A stretch of DNA of 10,407 nucleotides from Propionibacteriaceae bacterium (GTDB lineage Bacteria; Actinomycetota; Actinomycetes; Propionibacteriales; Propionibacteriaceae). The notes under the pieces are model-generated. The model saw only the letters and a program-made list of their open reading frames with translations, ran no database searches and was not told the DNA's origin. Where the stretch lies: positions 1 to 10,407 of the forward strand of contig JAUNUL010000073.1 of the NCBI GenBank assembly GCA_030538175.1, given 5' to 3'. Position numbers and translations under genes: made by a program. This document shows, piece after piece, positions 284-5,122 of this stretch (position 1 is its first letter; each line of letters starts with the position of its first letter).

Positions 284-1688
284 GTGCGCTATGTCTCCAC
301 TCGTGATCCCAACCCGGTCGGACTCCCGTTCTGCGACATCCTCCTCGCGGGCCTCGCGCCCGACGGTGGGCTCTATCTGCCCGAGTCGTATCCGCAGATT
401 TCAGCCGAGACCCTGACCGACTGGCGTGAGCTGCTGACAACGCGTGGGTATGCGGCGTTGGCAGCCGAGGTCCTGTCGCTCTATGTCGACGACATCCCCG
501 CCGAGGATCTCGCGGGGATCTGCGCGCGGGCGTACACGGCCGAGAAGTTCGGCACCGACGACATCGTCGGGGTCACCGACATCGGGGACGGGCTGCTGCT
601 CGGACACCTGTCGAACGGCCCGACCGCCGCGTTCAAGGACATGGCCATGCAGTTGCTGGGCGAGCTCTTCGAATATGAGCTCGAACGGCGCGATCAAACC
701 CTGACCATCCTCGGCGCGACCAGTGGCGACACGGGGTCCGCCGCGGAATATGCGATGTTGGGCAAGCCCCGGGTTCGGGTGTTCATGCTCACACCGGCCG
801 GCCGCATGAGCCCGTTCCAGCAGGCCCAGATGTTCTCCCTCGACGACCCGCGGATCGTCAACATCGCGGTCGAGGGCGTTTTCGATGACTGCCAGGACCT
901 CGTCAAGGCGGTCAACGGCGACCTCGGGTTCAAGGCCGAGCACCGGATCGGCGCCGTCAACTCGATCAACTGGGCCCGGTTGGTGGCGCAGGTGATCTAT
1001 TACGTGGCGCTCTACCTGCACGCGACGGACTCCAACGACCAAACGGTGACCTTCACGGTCCCGAGTGGCAACTTCGGCAATATCTGTGCCGGGCATATCG
1101 CGCGCGAGATGGGCGTGCCCATCGACACGCTGGTGTTGGCGACCAACGAGAACGACGTGCTGGCCGAGTTCTTCGCCACCGGCGTCTATCGGGTGCGGGG
1201 GACTGCCGAGACTCACGAGACCTCCAGCCCGTCGATGGATATCTCCAAGGCCTCCAACTTCGAGCGGTTCATCTTCGACCTCATCGGCCGGGATGCCGGG
1301 GAACTTCGGAAGCTTTTCGCCGAGGAGTTGGCCGCCCACGGGCGATTCGATCTGTCGGGGTTGCCGGCGTACCAATCCCTGCGGGAAAGGTTCGGTTTCG
1401 TCGCGGGGTCGTCGACACACGCCGACCGGGTCGCGACCATCGCCGCCGAGCATCAGGCGACCGGCATCACGATCGACCCGCACACCGCAGACGGTGTGAA
1501 GGTCGCGCGGGACCTGCGGGCGCAGCTCACCCCGCCGGTCCGCAACCATCGTCGAGGCGCTCGGTCACGATGTGGAACGGCCCGAGCGGTTCGCCGGTAT
1601 CGAGGACCTGCCCCGCACGGTGGTGGACCTCCCCAACGATGCCGACGCTCTCAAGGCACTCATCGCCGCCACCCCCAACCCGGCATAA
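284..1688 (+). pseudogene. thrC: Threonine synthase ThrC, frame broken near 1540 by an apparent ~35-bp internal deletion
   Basis: Threonine synthase is a PLP enzyme converting O-phosphohomoserine to threonine, the last step of threonine biosynthesis in the cytosol. This is the class II form, close to Corynebacterium ThrC (about 481 aa). The GTG start gives MRYVSTRD, matching the family N terminus. Visible features are the PLP lysine in AAFKDMAMQ (K118), the GATSGDTG loop (144-151), SGNFGN (261-266) and HTADGVKVARDL near 400. After V419 (codon 1538-1540) the frame turns to Arg-rich nonsense and runs on to TAA 1706-1708, as a 474-aa ORF at 284-1708. One frame over, from 1542, the genuine C terminus continues (ATIVEALGHDVERPERF ... 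LPNDADALKALIAATPNPA), ending at TAA 1686-1688. Compared with the family, the segment equivalent to IVLETALPxKFA is absent: 12 codons expected, 1 nt present. The product is probably impaired or inactive; an assembly error remains possible. Confidence 0.88.
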
Positions 1689-1704
1689 TCTGCAGTCATC
1701 TGGC
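1679..1704 (+). repeat. Left copy of a 26-bp perfect inverted repeat
   Basis: The segment begins cccggcataatctgcagtca and continues to 1704. Its reverse complement occurs exactly at 2740-2765, 26 of 26 bases, with mismatches immediately beyond both ends. The copy overlaps the last codons of thrC and contains the ancestral thrC stop (TAA 1686-1688). The heptamer ggcataa occurs at 1682-1688 and again at 1702-1708, the second spanning the inner edge of this copy; it is not doubled at the right copy. Confidence 0.9.
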
Positions 1705-1732
1705 ATAACGGCAGCGTTGGCCCTAGTCAGGG

Positions 1733-1769
1733 TTCTCCACAAGTGATTGCGGTGCAGGAATTGTCCACA
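1733..1769 (+). promoter_or_regulatory. Two DnaA-box-like TCCACA motifs upstream of the nuclease gene
   Basis: TTGTCCACA at 1761-1769 equals the consensus DnaA box used by high-GC actinomycetes, and TTCTCCACA at 1733-1741 differs from it by one base. The two are in the same orientation with 28 bp between starts, and lie 53 bp upstream of the ATG at 1822. They could bind DnaA, could be an operator for the nuclease's winged-helix N terminus, or could be chance. There is no AT-rich unwinding region, so this is not an origin. Confidence 0.35.
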
Positions 1770-1821
1770 ACCGGCGGGCTCCCCGTGAACCGCGCTGGGG
1801 CATTCCACGCATGTTCCCGGC

Positions 1822-2748
1822 ATGAAGCCCGCAAAGCTGGACGTCTGGACCATCCTCTATAACCAACACGGCCTGATCTCCTACGACACCTGCCCGCCCG
1901 AGCTGTTCGGGGTCATGAGGCGCATGGCCGCAGCAGGTGAACTCGGCAGCGTGCTGCCCGGGATCTTCGCGCCGACCGATCGCGTGGACGACCCGTTCAT
2001 CCGGATGCGGGCGGCCACGCTGCGCGATCCGGATGTGGTCTTCACTGACCTCACCGCAGCACACCTGCTGTGGCAAGCGCCGAGCCCAGCATCGATCAGC
2101 GCTATCGGCCGATTATCCGGTGACCGGCCGGGGTATGCGTTCTCCACCCGTTTCGTGGATCCACAGTGGGTCGTCGGGTCTCGGGGTTTCCGTTGCACGC
2201 ACCCAGCGCTGACTGCAGTGGATCTGATCCCTCGCGAGGGCGGGCGCTATGTGGATCGTTTCCTCCGGGACGCCCGCACCGAGGGCGCCACAGCGCTGCG
2301 GATGATGTGGCAGGCATTTCATGCCCACCCGCATCGACCCGGCAATGTCGTGCGGCAGCAGATTCTGAGTGATTCGCGAGATCGACCCTGGTCGGAGGCG
2401 GAGCGACTGGCACACCAGCAGTTGAGAGAGGCCGGCATCGAGGGCTGGAAAACCAACTATGCCGCGATGGCCAGCAGTGGCCGCCTCATGTTTCTCGACG
2501 TTGCCATCCCACGGCTGAAGATCGCGCTCGAAATCGATGGGTATGGGAGTCATTCCTCGCCTGAGGCCTTCCATACTGACCGGATCAGGCAGAACGACTT
2601 GATGGTGGATGGCTGGCTGGTGCTGCGGGTGACGTGGAGCATGCTCGAGAACCGCAGTTGGTTGCACTGGTTGGAAACGGCAATTTCTGCACGTGACTGG
2701 CCCTGGGTGCCCGCCCACAAGGCAAAACGCGCTCGAGACGCCAGATGA
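1822..2748 (+). CDS. AbiEi-like winged-helix / DUF559 (Vsr-like) endonuclease-domain protein
   Basis: This 308-aa soluble protein has two parts. Residues 1-90 look like the AbiEi-type winged-helix region (HGLISYDTC; TDLTAAHLLW). Residues 190-290 match the DUF559 nuclease fold of the Vsr/PD-(D/E)XK group: SEAE with E192/E194 in the first helix, then D226 in MFLDVAI, E237 and D239 in ALEIDGYGSH, and the closing block HTDRIRQNDLMVDGWLVLRVTW. These acidic residues sit where the metal-binding residues of the fold are expected, so the active site looks intact. Proteins of this type are common in actinobacteria, mostly as solitary genes, and their role is not established. The AbiEi likeness suggests autoregulatory DNA binding, and no toxin partner is adjacent. 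The ATG at 1822 has no clear Shine-Dalgarno; the ATG at 1811 meets a stop after four codons. The gene lies between 26-bp inverted repeats and its TGA is inside the right one. Confidence 0.85.
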   Translation: MKPAKLDVWTILYNQHGLISYDTCPPELFGVMRRMAAAGELGSVLPGIFAPTDRVDDPFIRMRAATLRDPDVVFTDLTAAHLLWQAPSPASISAIGRLSGDRPGYAFSTRFVDPQWVVGSRGFRCTHPALTAVDLIPREGGRYVDRFLRDARTEGATALRMMWQAFHAHPHRPGNVVRQQILSDSRDRPWSEAERLAHQQLREAGIEGWKTNYAAMASSGRLMFLDVAIPRLKIALEIDGYGSHSSPEAFHTDRIRQNDLMVDGWLVLRVTWSMLENRSWLHWLETAISARDWPWVPAHKAKRARDAR

Positions 2749-2765
2749 CTGCAGATTATGCCGGG
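2740..2765 (-). repeat. Right copy of the 26-bp perfect inverted repeat
   Basis: Reverse complement of 1679-1704 over all 26 bases; on the + strand it begins gccagatgactgcagattat. The stop codon of the nuclease gene (TGA 2746-2748) lies inside it. A PstI-type CTGCAG palindrome sits in the middle of both copies, but the repeat itself is not a hairpin. Confidence 0.9.
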
Positions 2766-2832: not shown

Positions 2833-2904
2833 CGGGGCACTGGACACCGGCACCCGCGATCTCTACCTTTCATGTTGATTCTCAGGCGGCCGAGCGCTGC
2901 AGGT

Positions 2905-2913
2905 GAAAGGTGG
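2905..2913 (+). promoter_or_regulatory. Ribosome binding site that decides the GH92 start
   Basis: GAAAGGTGG lies four bases before ATG 2918. It overlaps the alternative in-frame GTG at 2903, which would place the binding site inside the coding sequence. The ATG is therefore preferred. Confidence 0.6.
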
Positions 2914-2917
2914 CGCA

Positions 2918-5122
2918 ATGAAGAGCCGTTCGTTGAGCACGGTCGACCCGTTCATCGGGTGTGAACCGACCGATCTCCATCCCTCCACCGGCCTCGCGGC
3001 GACGTGGTGGAGCCCGAAGCCGCAGATCGGCAACACACATCCCGGGGCGACCTATCCGATGGGGATGGTGTCGGCGTGCGCCTATTCCGGTGCCTACCCA
3101 ACGGGTTACGGGCGTTTCGACTTGAGCACCGAAGGCGTGCCCCCGGAGATCCACCCCACCCAGACAGCCTCGGGCTTCACGCACTTCCAGCAGTCGGGGA
3201 CGGGTGCGATCCGCAAGTACTACAACTATTTCCGCGTCACCCCGATGATGGATCCGATCGACGGGCTCGGGCGGGCGTGGGAGTTGCTCGATGAGCGCGC
3301 CGCCCCAGGATGGTACGCCGCGACCCTGGACAACGGCATCCAGTGTGAGCTCACGGTCGGTCCGAAGTCGGCGATCCACCGGTACACGTTCCCGCGGACC
3401 AAAGATGCTCGCATCGCGATCGACTTCTCCCACGGCGGGCTGACGATTCCGTACAGCCGGACCTATCCGCTGCGCGCCAACCTCGAGGTGCTCGACACCC
3501 ATGCGGCGGCCGGGCAGGTCACGGTCGAGGGCGTCCCGCTCGCCGTGCACATCGAGTGCTTGAGCGATGGCTGGCGGCCGCAGTTGTGGTACGACCATCG
3601 CCGCATGCCCGGCAGCAGCCGACTCGAGTTCTCCGCGATCCGCCCCACGACGATGCGGCCGTTCGGTGTGTTGTGGACTGGGCCGCTCGATGTGACTGCC
3701 AGCGTTGAGATCCGGATCGGCTTCTCGCTGCGCGGTGCAGACAGCGCCAAGGCCAACCTGGACGCCGACGTCCCTCGCGAACGGGAATCCTTCGAGATCC
3801 GCCGCAGTCGGACAGAGGAAGCCTGGACCGAACATCTGGACAAGATCCACGTCGAGGCGCCCACTCGGGAACGCCAGACCGTGTTCGACACGGCCGTCTA
3901 TCACAGCCTCATCAAGCCGGCGATCATGCAGTCGGAGTCGCCGTGGTGGCCCAACCCGGGGCCGTTCGCGTTCGACATCTGCACGATGTGGGATATCTAT
4001 CGCACGCAACTGCCGCTGCTGATCGTGCTCGCACCGAAGAAGGCCGCCGATCTGGCCAGCGCGCTGATCACGATCTGTGAGGAGGAAGGCAACTTCCCGA
4101 TCGGCTATCGCATGGCCCGGGGTGCGGATCGCTTCTCCCGGCAGGGGAGCGCGTTGGCGCACACGTTCCTGGCCGCGGTCAACCAGGCCGGTCTGCCGGG
4201 GGTCGACTGGGAGCTGGCATTGACCCTCATGGCGACCGATCTGCGGCGCACCTATGGCGAGGAATTCCTGCGTTTCGGCCGGGCCGAGCCGATCACCCAC
4301 ACCTTGGATCTGGCGTTCGGGCACTGGTGCACCGCGCACGTCGCCCGGCAGGTCGGGGACAACGCGCTGGCAGAGTCGCTGGCCAAGCGCGCGGGGGGCT
4401 GGCGCAACGCGTTCGACGCCGATGGCCGGCTGCTGCGGGCGTCCACGTTCTATGAGGGCACCCGCTGGAACTATTCGTTCCGGCTTCTGCACGACATGGC
4501 TGGTCGCATCGAGATGGCCGGCGGCGATGGGCCGTTCGTGGATCTGCTCGACGCTTTCTTCGGGTTTGGGGCCGAACCCGAACGCCAGCCCGGCGTCGGA
4601 CCGGATGCCGACGAACTTGTCCGGGGCTATGAGCTCGGTCGCTTCCAGGGCATGAACAACGAGCCCGACATGGACGCGCCGTGGGCGTACACGTATGCCG
4701 GGCGACCCGATCGGACCGCGGAGGTCGTGCACGGGATCGTCACGAACCAGTTCCGGGCGACCCGGGGTGGGTTGCCGGGCAACGACGACTCGGGGGGTTT
4801 GAGTTCCTGGTATGTCTGGGCGGCGCTTGGCCTGTTTCCCGTCGTCGGTCAGGATGTCTTCCTGCTCAATGCACCCGCCCACGAGCATGCCCGCATCTCC
4901 ACCGGCGCCCAGGACTTGACGATCGACACGGTCGGCTACCGTGCTCCCGAGCCGGACCAGCCCCCGCAGTTCGTCACCGGTGTCACATTGGAGGGTCGCA
5001 AGGTCGATCGCGCGTGGCTCAGCGGGGACGAGTTCCGGCGCGGCGGGCAGCTTGTCGTGACGTTGGGTGACAAGCCGGGTGATTGGGGTACGCAGATCCG
5101 GCCGCCGTCGTATCCCACGTGA
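2918..5122 (+). CDS. GH92 family alpha-mannosidase (putative alpha-1,2-mannosidase), no signal peptide
   Basis: A 734-aa glycoside hydrolase of family GH92, Ca2+-dependent inverting exo-alpha-mannosidases that remove mannose from mannans, N-glycans or other mannosides. Landmarks run in family order: VDPFIG (9-14) at the very N terminus, NTHPGATYPMGMV near 45, SGFTHFQQSGTG near 95, MWDIYRTQLPLL with W358/D359, the MNNEPDMDAPWAYTYAG block with E582, and GLPGNDDSGGLSSWYVWAALGLFPV (starting at 618) with D623/D624. The acidic residues of these last two blocks are the conserved active-site and calcium region of the family. The length is typical. The family domain begins within 10 residues of the ATG, with no signal peptide or membrane segment, so the enzyme should be cytosolic, unlike many secreted GH92 enzymes. 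An in-frame GTG at 2903 would add five residues. The gene stands alone between the nuclease module and two glycosyltransferases; mannose linkage specificity is inferred from the family only. Confidence 0.93.
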   Translation: MKSRSLSTVDPFIGCEPTDLHPSTGLAATWWSPKPQIGNTHPGATYPMGMVSACAYSGAYPTGYGRFDLSTEGVPPEIHPTQTASGFTHFQQSGTGAIRKYYNYFRVTPMMDPIDGLGRAWELLDERAAPGWYAATLDNGIQCELTVGPKSAIHRYTFPRTKDARIAIDFSHGGLTIPYSRTYPLRANLEVLDTHAAAGQVTVEGVPLAVHIECLSDGWRPQLWYDHRRMPGSSRLEFSAIRPTTMRPFGVLWTGPLDVTASVEIRIGFSLRGADSAKANLDADVPRERESFEIRRSRTEEAWTEHLDKIHVEAPTRERQTVFDTAVYHSLIKPAIMQSESPWWPNPGPFAFDICTMWDIYRTQLPLLIVLAPKKAADLASALITICEEEGNFPIGYRMARGADRFSRQGSALAHTFLAAVNQAGLPGVDWELALTLMATDLRRTYGEEFLRFGRAEPITHTLDLAFGHWCTAHVARQVGDNALAESLAKRAGGWRNAFDADGRLLRASTFYEGTRWNYSFRLLHDMAGRIEMAGGDGPFVDLLDAFFGFGAEPERQPGVGPDADELVRGYELGRFQGMNNEPDMDAPWAYTYAGRPDRTAEVVHGIVTNQFRATRGGLPGNDDSGGLSSWYVWAALGLFPVVGQDVFLLNAPAHEHARISTGAQDLTIDTVGYRAPEPDQPPQFVTGVTLEGRKVDRAWLSGDEFRRGGQLVVTLGDKPGDWGTQIRPPSYPT

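Follow-up and report, generated by a model that had tools for sequence, protein, structure and literature searches.

What does a solitary nuclease gene do between two perfect copies of the same repeat? This question is raised by the window, the 10,407-nucleotide stretch of a Propionibacteriaceae genome that was analyzed here. The 26-mer CCCGGCATAATCTGCAGTCATCTGGC is located at positions 1679-1704 of the forward strand and recurs, exactly reverse-complemented, at 2740-2765; about 1e-8 perfect inverted pairs of 26 bp are expected in a window of this size. As the first-pass annotation had stated, the repeats enclose exactly one gene, a solitary DUF559/MTES_1575 gene (1822-2748, forward strand, 308 amino acids), and no transposase was seen between them. 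A recombinase gene was found neither between nor directly beside the repeats. The boundary drawn by that annotation is real and common to a second genome of the same genus (G003), but the 26-mers are only the outer parts (arm A) of elements of about 92 bp. The left element (1679-1771, forward strand; model match 1680-1767, E 2e-18) continues with a middle motif at about 1714-1728 and arm C at about 1752-1766. The right element (2671-2765, reverse strand; model match 2673-2764, E 5e-18) faces it, with its arm A at 2740-2765; both copies are part of the model that scored them. The nuclease gene shares its final 78 bp with the right element, and its stop codon falls within the right 26-mer. The module is flanked by thrC (284-1708 as called, forward strand) and, downstream, by a GH92 glycosidase gene (2903-5122, forward strand). 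The thrC reading frame breaks near 1540, and in the frame homologous to G003 the stop is the TAA at 1686-1688, within the left 26-mer.

Both elements belong to a family, R1, with about 30 copies in the genome of the window. Arm A (22-24 bp) lies outside and arm C, which is partly complementary to A, inside; the middle motif is GACTAGGGCAAACGC or a close variant on the complementary strand. R1 forms an imperfect palindrome with 10 consensus pairs. The 22-bp core of the 26-mer occurs in this genome at 13 places exactly and at 19 places with at most three mismatches, the two of the window included in each count. Solo copies are dispersed between genes: 16 of 20 ORFs beside them match an NCBIfam family, with no transposase or DUF559 protein among these 16, and two solo copies are missing at the corresponding sites in four relatives. 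The other DUF559 genes found in this genome (C265, C137) lie away from the R1 copies listed. As the 22-mer is identical in 13 copies with differing interiors, the perfect identity of the repeats, previously ascribed to recent origin or maintenance, does not prove recent origin and points to maintenance. A reading of R1 as an RNA structure was rejected, as RNAalifold within this genome gave 10 pairs without any two-sided change; two-sided change occurs only between genomes, and R1 was therefore treated as a DNA element. Inspection by eye revealed no clear T-run after the R1 arms, and an Rfam search of 12 loci (the window and 11 with copies) returned three tRNAs and no other family.

The protein combines two halves, in agreement with its earlier assignment as an AbiEi-like/DUF559 nuclease. 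Residues 3-186 are AbiEi-like and residues 191-293 form an EDxHD/Vsr-like nuclease domain, whose presence is based on fold and sequence-profile match. The match to PF18741 (E 8e-6, 26.3 bits) does not reach the family cut-off of 38.2, the weak match to PF04480 (E 0.009) also lies below the cut-off of that family, and for the N-terminal half PADLOC AbiEi models give weak matches (E 1e-4 for the window protein). An alignment of 22 chosen relatives shows no variation at E194, D226, E237 and D253. PF18741 occurs at E<=1e-4 in 32 of 37 family genomes and above its curated cut-off in 21 of 37; some PF18741 domains of this set sit in giant fusion proteins. Absence from Foldseek or VIA-align listings was not counted as evidence. 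In the literature, neither a settled role for solitary DUF559-type nucleases nor a link between DUF559 and such framing repeats was found.

A DNA-processing enzyme gene flanked by an intergenically dispersed palindrome is the arrangement outlined for REP/RAYT systems (REPtrons, REPINs), with conserved matched ends, a variable middle and enzyme-specific repeats, in the cited accounts (PMC3733652, PMC3116915, PMC8266576). The unit in the window is likewise an enzyme gene flanked by a dispersed palindromic extragenic repeat. It probably represents a REPtron-like unit, in which the nuclease gene is framed by copies of a palindrome-like element that is most likely its target. The best reading, which we hold with reasonable but limited confidence, is a REP/RAYT-like system whose enzyme is unrelated to RAYT and would recognize and propagate its own palindromes. 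The fold differs, being AbiEi plus EDxHD/Vsr here and a Y1 HUH transposase in RAYT; the latter (PF01797) was found in none of five genus genomes and in 6 of 14 control genomes. GTAG or CGTC tags are absent from the consensus ends of R1, the family checked. According to a passage in PMC3733652, a dedicated transposase is lacking in some REP families.

In G003 the framed nuclease is also located at thrC, in the same orientation relative to thrC as in the window. All eight R1 copies found in G003 carry one common two-sided change from A-T to G-C. The number of R1 cells with two-sided change (eight) lies above all 500 shuffles; only one of the 10 pairs changes on both sides, which is reached in 497 of 500 shuffles and speaks against the REPtron-like reading. 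Among 12 genomes, thrC was found in nine, and the stretches downstream of it were read in seven: the element is present in G003 and absent from the other six. In G002 and G004, thrC is followed by another gene instead of GH92, and a motif scan downstream of it detected no element. The search for an empty thrC-GH92 junction proposed earlier yielded no clean empty site for the cassette among the seven stretches. Weak R1 matches in G001 and G017 were discarded, as no clear R1 arms were visible by eye. Comparison of six solo sites of G003 with 29 loci of the window's genome gave one common neighbourhood (L020/L061), where the position is not clearly identical.

Across the family, 44 of 152 non-redundant DUF559 genes (duplicates removed) have strongly matching flanks at a score of 25; among controls, the count is 5 of 505 for neighbouring genes and 1 of 319 for genes from other places. 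The repeat had been expected to lose its significance if it proved dispersed and unrelated to DUF559; it is dispersed, but the link holds at family level. The window itself scores 27.8, barely above the threshold, and the 108 of 152 genes below it argue against the REPtron-like reading. Controls were chosen as the longest ORFs that do not overlap, and some of these are spurious. High-scoring controls (L133, L214, L205, L261, L219) were retained as such, and the test extends 200 bp into the gene. The 319 genes derive from 36 of 40 stretches (evenly spaced in G023, hand-picked in G004 and G003); the remaining four, which overlap or border framed genes already known (L346, L347, L350, L357), were not used. 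A first set of 105 loci held four previously known cases and one locus twice (L123 = L153). At a lower threshold of 18.2 the contrast is smaller (65/152 versus 56/505). Controls pass there in 9/120, 48/401, 56/505 and 16/319 cases, and since 11% of control genes do so, the mismatched-pair null is too lenient at this threshold. A strong palindrome is present in a framing copy of 24 of the 44 framed genes; the 20 without any copy at a palindrome score of at least 24, relative to a null from one segment length and one genome, count against the REPtron-like reading. Framing copies run in the same direction for 32 of the 44 genes and are inverted for the other 12, among them that of the window. Counting against the REPtron-like reading, this preponderance of direct copies differs from REP/RAYT, and so do copy numbers that span the range between the framing copies alone and about 30. 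A dispersed palindrome flanks the enzyme gene in the window, G003, L170/L187, L109 and L125. The L135 family has no solo copy in 420 kb sampled, contrary to the REPtron-like reading, and L088, L080 and L087 show framing copies only within the 180-220 kb sampled. Our own profile HMM recovered L322 (E 2e-8), which matches no Pfam family at E<=0.01, and failed to detect L334, where the nuclease half was assigned by visual inspection.

The main rival explanation regards the nuclease as cargo. Palindrome-bounded units would owe their movement to a different enzyme or to homologous recombination of one palindrome with another, and would carry selfish or defensive genes, most often DUF559 nucleases and sometimes toxin-antitoxin pairs. 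We consider this unlikely; it is the main rival because a toxin-antitoxin-like pair is also found between palindromes of one family. In G007 a DUF433/DUF5615 pair (L298) lies between two L125-family palindromes, and the whole unit of about 0.98 kb is absent at the orthologous G030 site; at this one clean empty site (L298/L299) no target-site duplication was recognized by eye. The sugar transporter L317, whose framing palindromes look by eye like those of L176, and the weak PADLOC match of the N-terminal half are also consistent with cargo. The content of framed intervals argues otherwise: of the 24 hairpin-framed intervals found in 2.29 Mb, 18 contain DUF559 loci (15 flagged automatically and three assigned by hand, most of these loci having been fetched for DUF559), and arbitrarily placed stretches totalling 720 kb contained just one such interval, of AbiEi type with a DUF559-like end. 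The palindromes are moreover nuclease-specific, being similar in 3 of 21 nuclease pairs with protein identity >0.6 and in 0 of 969 other pairs. A limited look for another mobilizer gave no Y1 transposase in five genomes of the genus, and no transposase family was seen among the 20 ORFs beside solo copies, four of which matched no family.

A regulatory function of the palindromes is improbable. The upstream copy would serve as an AbiEi-type operator and the downstream copy as a terminator or mRNA end, with solo copies as regulon sites or terminators. AbiEi proteins are described to autoregulate via 23-bp inverted repeats in their own promoters (PMC7319586), and the positions of the framing copies agree with this, as the upstream copy terminates at a median distance of 70 bp from the start codon, and the downstream copy begins about at the stop codon. 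The arms of an orthologous solo palindrome in G007 and G030 (L283/L287) are kept and its middle differs, which would also be expected of a fixed functional site. However, framing copies are about 95% identical over 93-119 bp, non-palindromic parts included (L125 113/119, L145 88/93), and solo copies lie beside unrelated genes, with the corresponding sites of two such copies lacking the element in four relatives. At one site (L125/L315), one of the genomes G007 and G030 harbors palindrome-nuclease-palindrome and the other a single palindrome; such alternatives, like the lack of a clear T-run after the R1 arms, speak against regulation. Two further sites were set aside: a solo copy absent in G007 (L289/L296), where the gap exceeds the element and may be a deletion, and a palindrome split by a transposase-like gene in G007 (L294). 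Plain dispersed repeats, such as MITEs of an unknown transposase, that landed by chance on both sides of the gene would fit the dispersal of R1 and the position of C265 and C137, but are very unlikely given the same framing in G003 and the enrichment over two kinds of control genes. A phase-invertible segment, suggested earlier by perfect inverted repeats about 1 kb apart, is hardly credible, as the orientation is the same in both genomes, the direct copies of most framed relatives are unable to invert a gene, and a recombinase gene was not found at the repeats.

Under the REPtron-like reading, the AbiEi-like half would contact the paired arms in dimeric form; binding to inverted repeats is on record for AbiEi proteins (PMC7319586). 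The EDxHD/Vsr-like half would nick or cut the element, which may be extruded as a hairpin. Through repair or strand transfer, the element would be copied into new intergenic sites, either by itself or together with the gene enclosed by two copies. The arms would stay matched through selection for recognition while the middle drifts. The earlier proposal of a nuclease acting at the repeat is compatible with the wider framing data. The sequences themselves show the framing, the dispersal, the conserved arms, the two-sided change throughout the G003 copies, the association of framing with DUF559 genes, the two copies missing in four relatives and the cassette or solo palindrome at L125/L315; binding, cutting, movement and protein-driven spread are inferred. 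Among nucleases, the homing endonuclease I-Bth0305I shares the EDxHD catalytic domain in fold and profile, and the site pair L125/L315, occupied in one genome and holding the palindrome alone in the other, is also reminiscent of it. In contrast to I-Bth0305I, the gene is free-standing and intergenic and lies outside any intron, intein or target gene, the proposed target is the framing palindrome and the second half is of AbiEi type. The AbiE type IV toxin-antitoxin systems share the AbiEi antitoxin fold of residues 3-186, but here this half is joined to a nuclease domain and the neighbours are thrC and GH92, with no adjacent AbiEii (DUF1814) toxin gene. The Vsr mismatch endonuclease differs in that no methylase gene adjoins the window nuclease, and in the extra N-terminal half and framing repeats found here.

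More tentatively, free-standing AbiEi-EDxHD (DUF559/MTES_1575) proteins could form a separate class, each recognizing, cutting and spreading its own palindrome, with the gene carried between two copies and other genes between copies, such as toxin-antitoxin pairs, also movable. A self-spreading DNA system of this type may not have been described so far. If a solitary DUF559 gene of this kind pairs with its own dispersed palindrome, the family gains a testable function, and REP-like elements would gain a second, unrelated enzyme lineage. Dozens of enzyme/site pairs would then be at hand for studying the joint change of a DNA-binding half and its target, and the class reading, if true, would provide a role for a large family of unknown function.

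The perfect 26-bp inverted repeats reported by the first-pass annotation were confirmed at 1679-1704 and 2740-2765, with a single gene of 308 aa between thrC and GH92, the DUF559/MTES_1575 nuclease (1822-2748, + strand). The chance expectation for such a pair is about 1e-8 per window. Read in the frame homologous to G003, a complete genome from this genus, thrC terminates inside the left copy; the nuclease gene terminates inside the right one. Compared with its intact G003 counterpart, thrC loses its reading frame near 1540 (region 1530-1708), through either an assembly error or a real frameshift; the assembly comprises 553 contigs with a completeness of 87.8% and a contamination of 5.1%. The repeats had been proposed as the boundary of a nuclease module, and they do enclose the gene, but they are not confined to it. 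Their 22-mer core is dispersed in the same genome, with 13 exact places and 19 at up to three mismatches, whereas the reversed 22-mer used as control had none. From 18 of these 19 places extends a block of nearly constant length (~92 bp), termed R1, which lies at 1679-1771 (+) and 2671-2765 (-) in the window; the remaining place, on contig C125, matches arm A only. The block consists of three conserved parts with free spacers, namely the outer arm A (CGGCATAATCTGCAGTCATCTG), a middle motif and arm C, which is partly complementary to arm A, and forms an imperfect palindrome with 10 consensus pairs. A sequence-only search model built from the 18 copies yielded 31 matches at E<=0.01 in this genome. 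These are intergenic or located at gene ends, and by our reading the C end frequently faces a stop codon. An NCBIfam family could be assigned to 16 of the 20 ORFs adjoining solo copies (e.g. lysS, zwf, rsmI, larB, larC and thiO), none of these 16 being a transposase, and four have no NCBIfam match at E<=1e-10. At L009:2009-2237 on contig C10 a pair of R1 elements lies face to face, about 40 bp apart and with no gene in between.

The R1 model was also searched in 57 genomes, including that of the window. Besides the latter only G003 has more than one match (eight); three genomes give a single match apiece, weak and partial. Among the four other genomes of the genus, a close homologue of the nuclease occurs in G003 only (71%; best elsewhere 49%). 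There the framed module recurs: the nuclease lies after thrC and before GH92 with two R1 copies and an equal span; the thrC-GH92 interval of G003 also harbors an extra gene, MerR-like by eye. Two R1 copies of the window's genome, one behind lysS and one behind rsmI, are without a counterpart at the corresponding loci of all four same-genus relatives. Behind rsmI, G003 (L310) carries another palindrome, CGATGCCACA...TGTGGCATCG, where the window's genome has R1. At one paired position arm A carries G and arm C carries C in all eight copies from G003, and the copies of the window's genome have A and T in 17 of 18 cases and G and T in one. As five of the six solo neighbourhoods in G003 match none of the 29 loci compared from the window's genome, this change from A/T to G/C spans copies at different sites. 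The aligned copies point to concerted change of the R1 family, as would be expected if the arms are read pairwise by a co-changing factor. Two-sided change affects one of 10 R1 pairs, a count reached by 497 of 500 shuffles; the two-sided cells number eight, above all 500 shuffles.

Framing of DUF559 genes was also analyzed across the family, in which PF18741 matches 32 of 37 genomes at E<=1e-4 and 21 above the curated cut-off. A scan of 21 loci, initially found with the window protein, for exact inverted repeats of at least 15 nt at 0.4-2.5 kb detected five: the window, its G003 counterpart, and L080, L087 and L088, where DUF559 genes carry repeats other than the window's. When the upstream and downstream flanks of DUF559 genes were compared, 44 of 105 loci in a first set exceeded the 99% level of mismatched pairs, and a score above 25 was obtained for 20 of 79 DUF559 genes versus 1 of 120 other genes of those loci. 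A second set from named genomes, overlapping the first in part, gave 18 of 65 versus 4 of 401. In the joined, non-redundant sets 44 of 152 DUF559 genes are framed versus 5 of 505 others (p 3e-25; 65 of 152 versus 56 of 505 at the lower threshold of 18.2), and 40 of 148 without four cases known before the test. In G023, G004 and G003, 36 stretches of 20 kb placed arbitrarily contain only one framed gene out of 319. Of the 44 shared segments, whose median length is 86.5 bp, 32 are direct and 12 inverted; a median of 70 bp separates the end of the upstream segment from the start codon, and the downstream segment starts roughly at the stop codon. A palindrome score of at least 24 in at least one copy was found for 24 of the 44 framed genes versus 1.25% of random segments. 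The shared flanks are not all palindromes, and L163, L198 and L203 may represent other kinds of repeats. At L203 (G014), TTTTCCCGTTNTCTCGGTCAAACG-like repeated units at 2070-2253 and 3224-3407 flank a DUF559 gene in inverted arrangement.

The palindrome of L170/L187 gives 10 matches in G007 and as many in G030, with none in three further genomes, and that of L109 gives seven in G023, with none in a further four; these counts include framing copies, and a single palindrome can yield two matches. For the L125 palindrome, 240 kb of G007 contain four places (two of which form the frame) and 442 kb of G030 contain six, with no place in another 2.1 Mb of loci. Samples of 180-420 kb revealed two further places each for L145 and L109, none for L135, and framing copies only for L088, L080 and L087. 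The clearest comparison of turnover is the L125 site, which in G007 reads palindrome-DUF559-palindrome; the orthologous intergenic site of G030 holds one palindrome of the same family, with reversed interior and without a gene. At another site G007 and G030, two genomes of one genus, carry different nuclease genes, L195 in G007 and one framed by its own inverted repeats at L322:13107-14383 in G030. Of the solo palindromes orthologous between G007 and G030, that at L283/L287 has kept its arms with an unrelated middle, and that at L298/L299 (~9.9-10 kb) is alike over its full length. At L294:1979-3400 (G007) a palindrome is split by a gene that by eye looks like an IS30-type transposase, and the G030 orthologue L288 is uninterrupted.

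The strongest rival explanation is that DUF559 genes are a frequent cargo of palindrome-bounded units. Other cargo does exist, as L125-family palindromes frame a DUF433/DUF5615 toxin-antitoxin-like pair at L298:4891-5825 (G007), a unit wholly absent from the orthologous G030 site. By eye, the palindromes framing a sugar transporter gene at L317:6129-8054 (G030) resemble those of the L176 nuclease. The frequency with which DUF559 is the enclosed gene weighs against this explanation: 18 of 24 hairpin-framed intervals in the DUF559-rich set hold DUF559 loci (15 flagged, three assigned by hand). Five repeat-framed intervals were found in the 36 arbitrarily placed stretches, a sample not directed at DUF559, and the one with hairpin repeats, L334:10972-12126, encloses a gene with an AbiEi_4 match (E 3e-8), weak AbiEi_1 matches and a C-terminus that by eye is DUF559-nuclease-like. 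The cargo explanation is also opposed by the palindromes, each of which on sequence comparison is specific to its nuclease. In a comparison of 45 framed genes (990 pairs), palindromes resemble each other in 3 of the 21 pairs whose proteins exceed an identity of 0.6 and in none of the 969 other pairs. The one part with a wider distribution is the R1 middle motif, which, allowing at most one mismatch, was found across 2.3 Mb of other loci at L104 and L032 only (0.2 expected). L104, from another genus, has it in both framing copies; L032 (G027, ~1490-1540) has the exact motif GACTAGGGCAAACGC in a hairpin loop with unrelated arms, a match that is not independent because this locus was fetched by the R1 model. 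The L032 hairpin lies near a sequence that looks tRNA-like by eye.

In the mostly open-access literature, where DUF559 appears in 14 papers, no work joins it with 'repetitive extragenic palindromic' or 'inverted repeat'; in the text available, co-mention with 'palindrom' is limited to two papers, one a study of CRISPR and quorum sensing and the other a cancer review, and further combined searches gave no DUF559-palindrome link among the matches listed. In the accessible sections, a DUF559-containing intein gene is assigned to the EDxHD family (PMC9403480), MTES_1575 names a Vsr-type domain in a large fusion protein (PMC3710099), and the words RAYT, nuclease and transposase are all absent from a REP survey (PMC12306157). 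In anatomy and evolution the nuclease unit resembles the REP/RAYT systems, for which the available excerpts describe a dispersed palindrome, with matched ends and a variable middle, on both sides of an enzyme gene (PMC3116915, PMC3733652, PMC8266576). It is nevertheless not a member of these systems, since their Y1 transposase is present in none of five genomes of the genus, their GTAG or CGTC tag is absent at the R1 ends, and the framed enzyme has another fold. If the nuclease acts on its palindrome, the unit would work in the manner of REP/RAYT.
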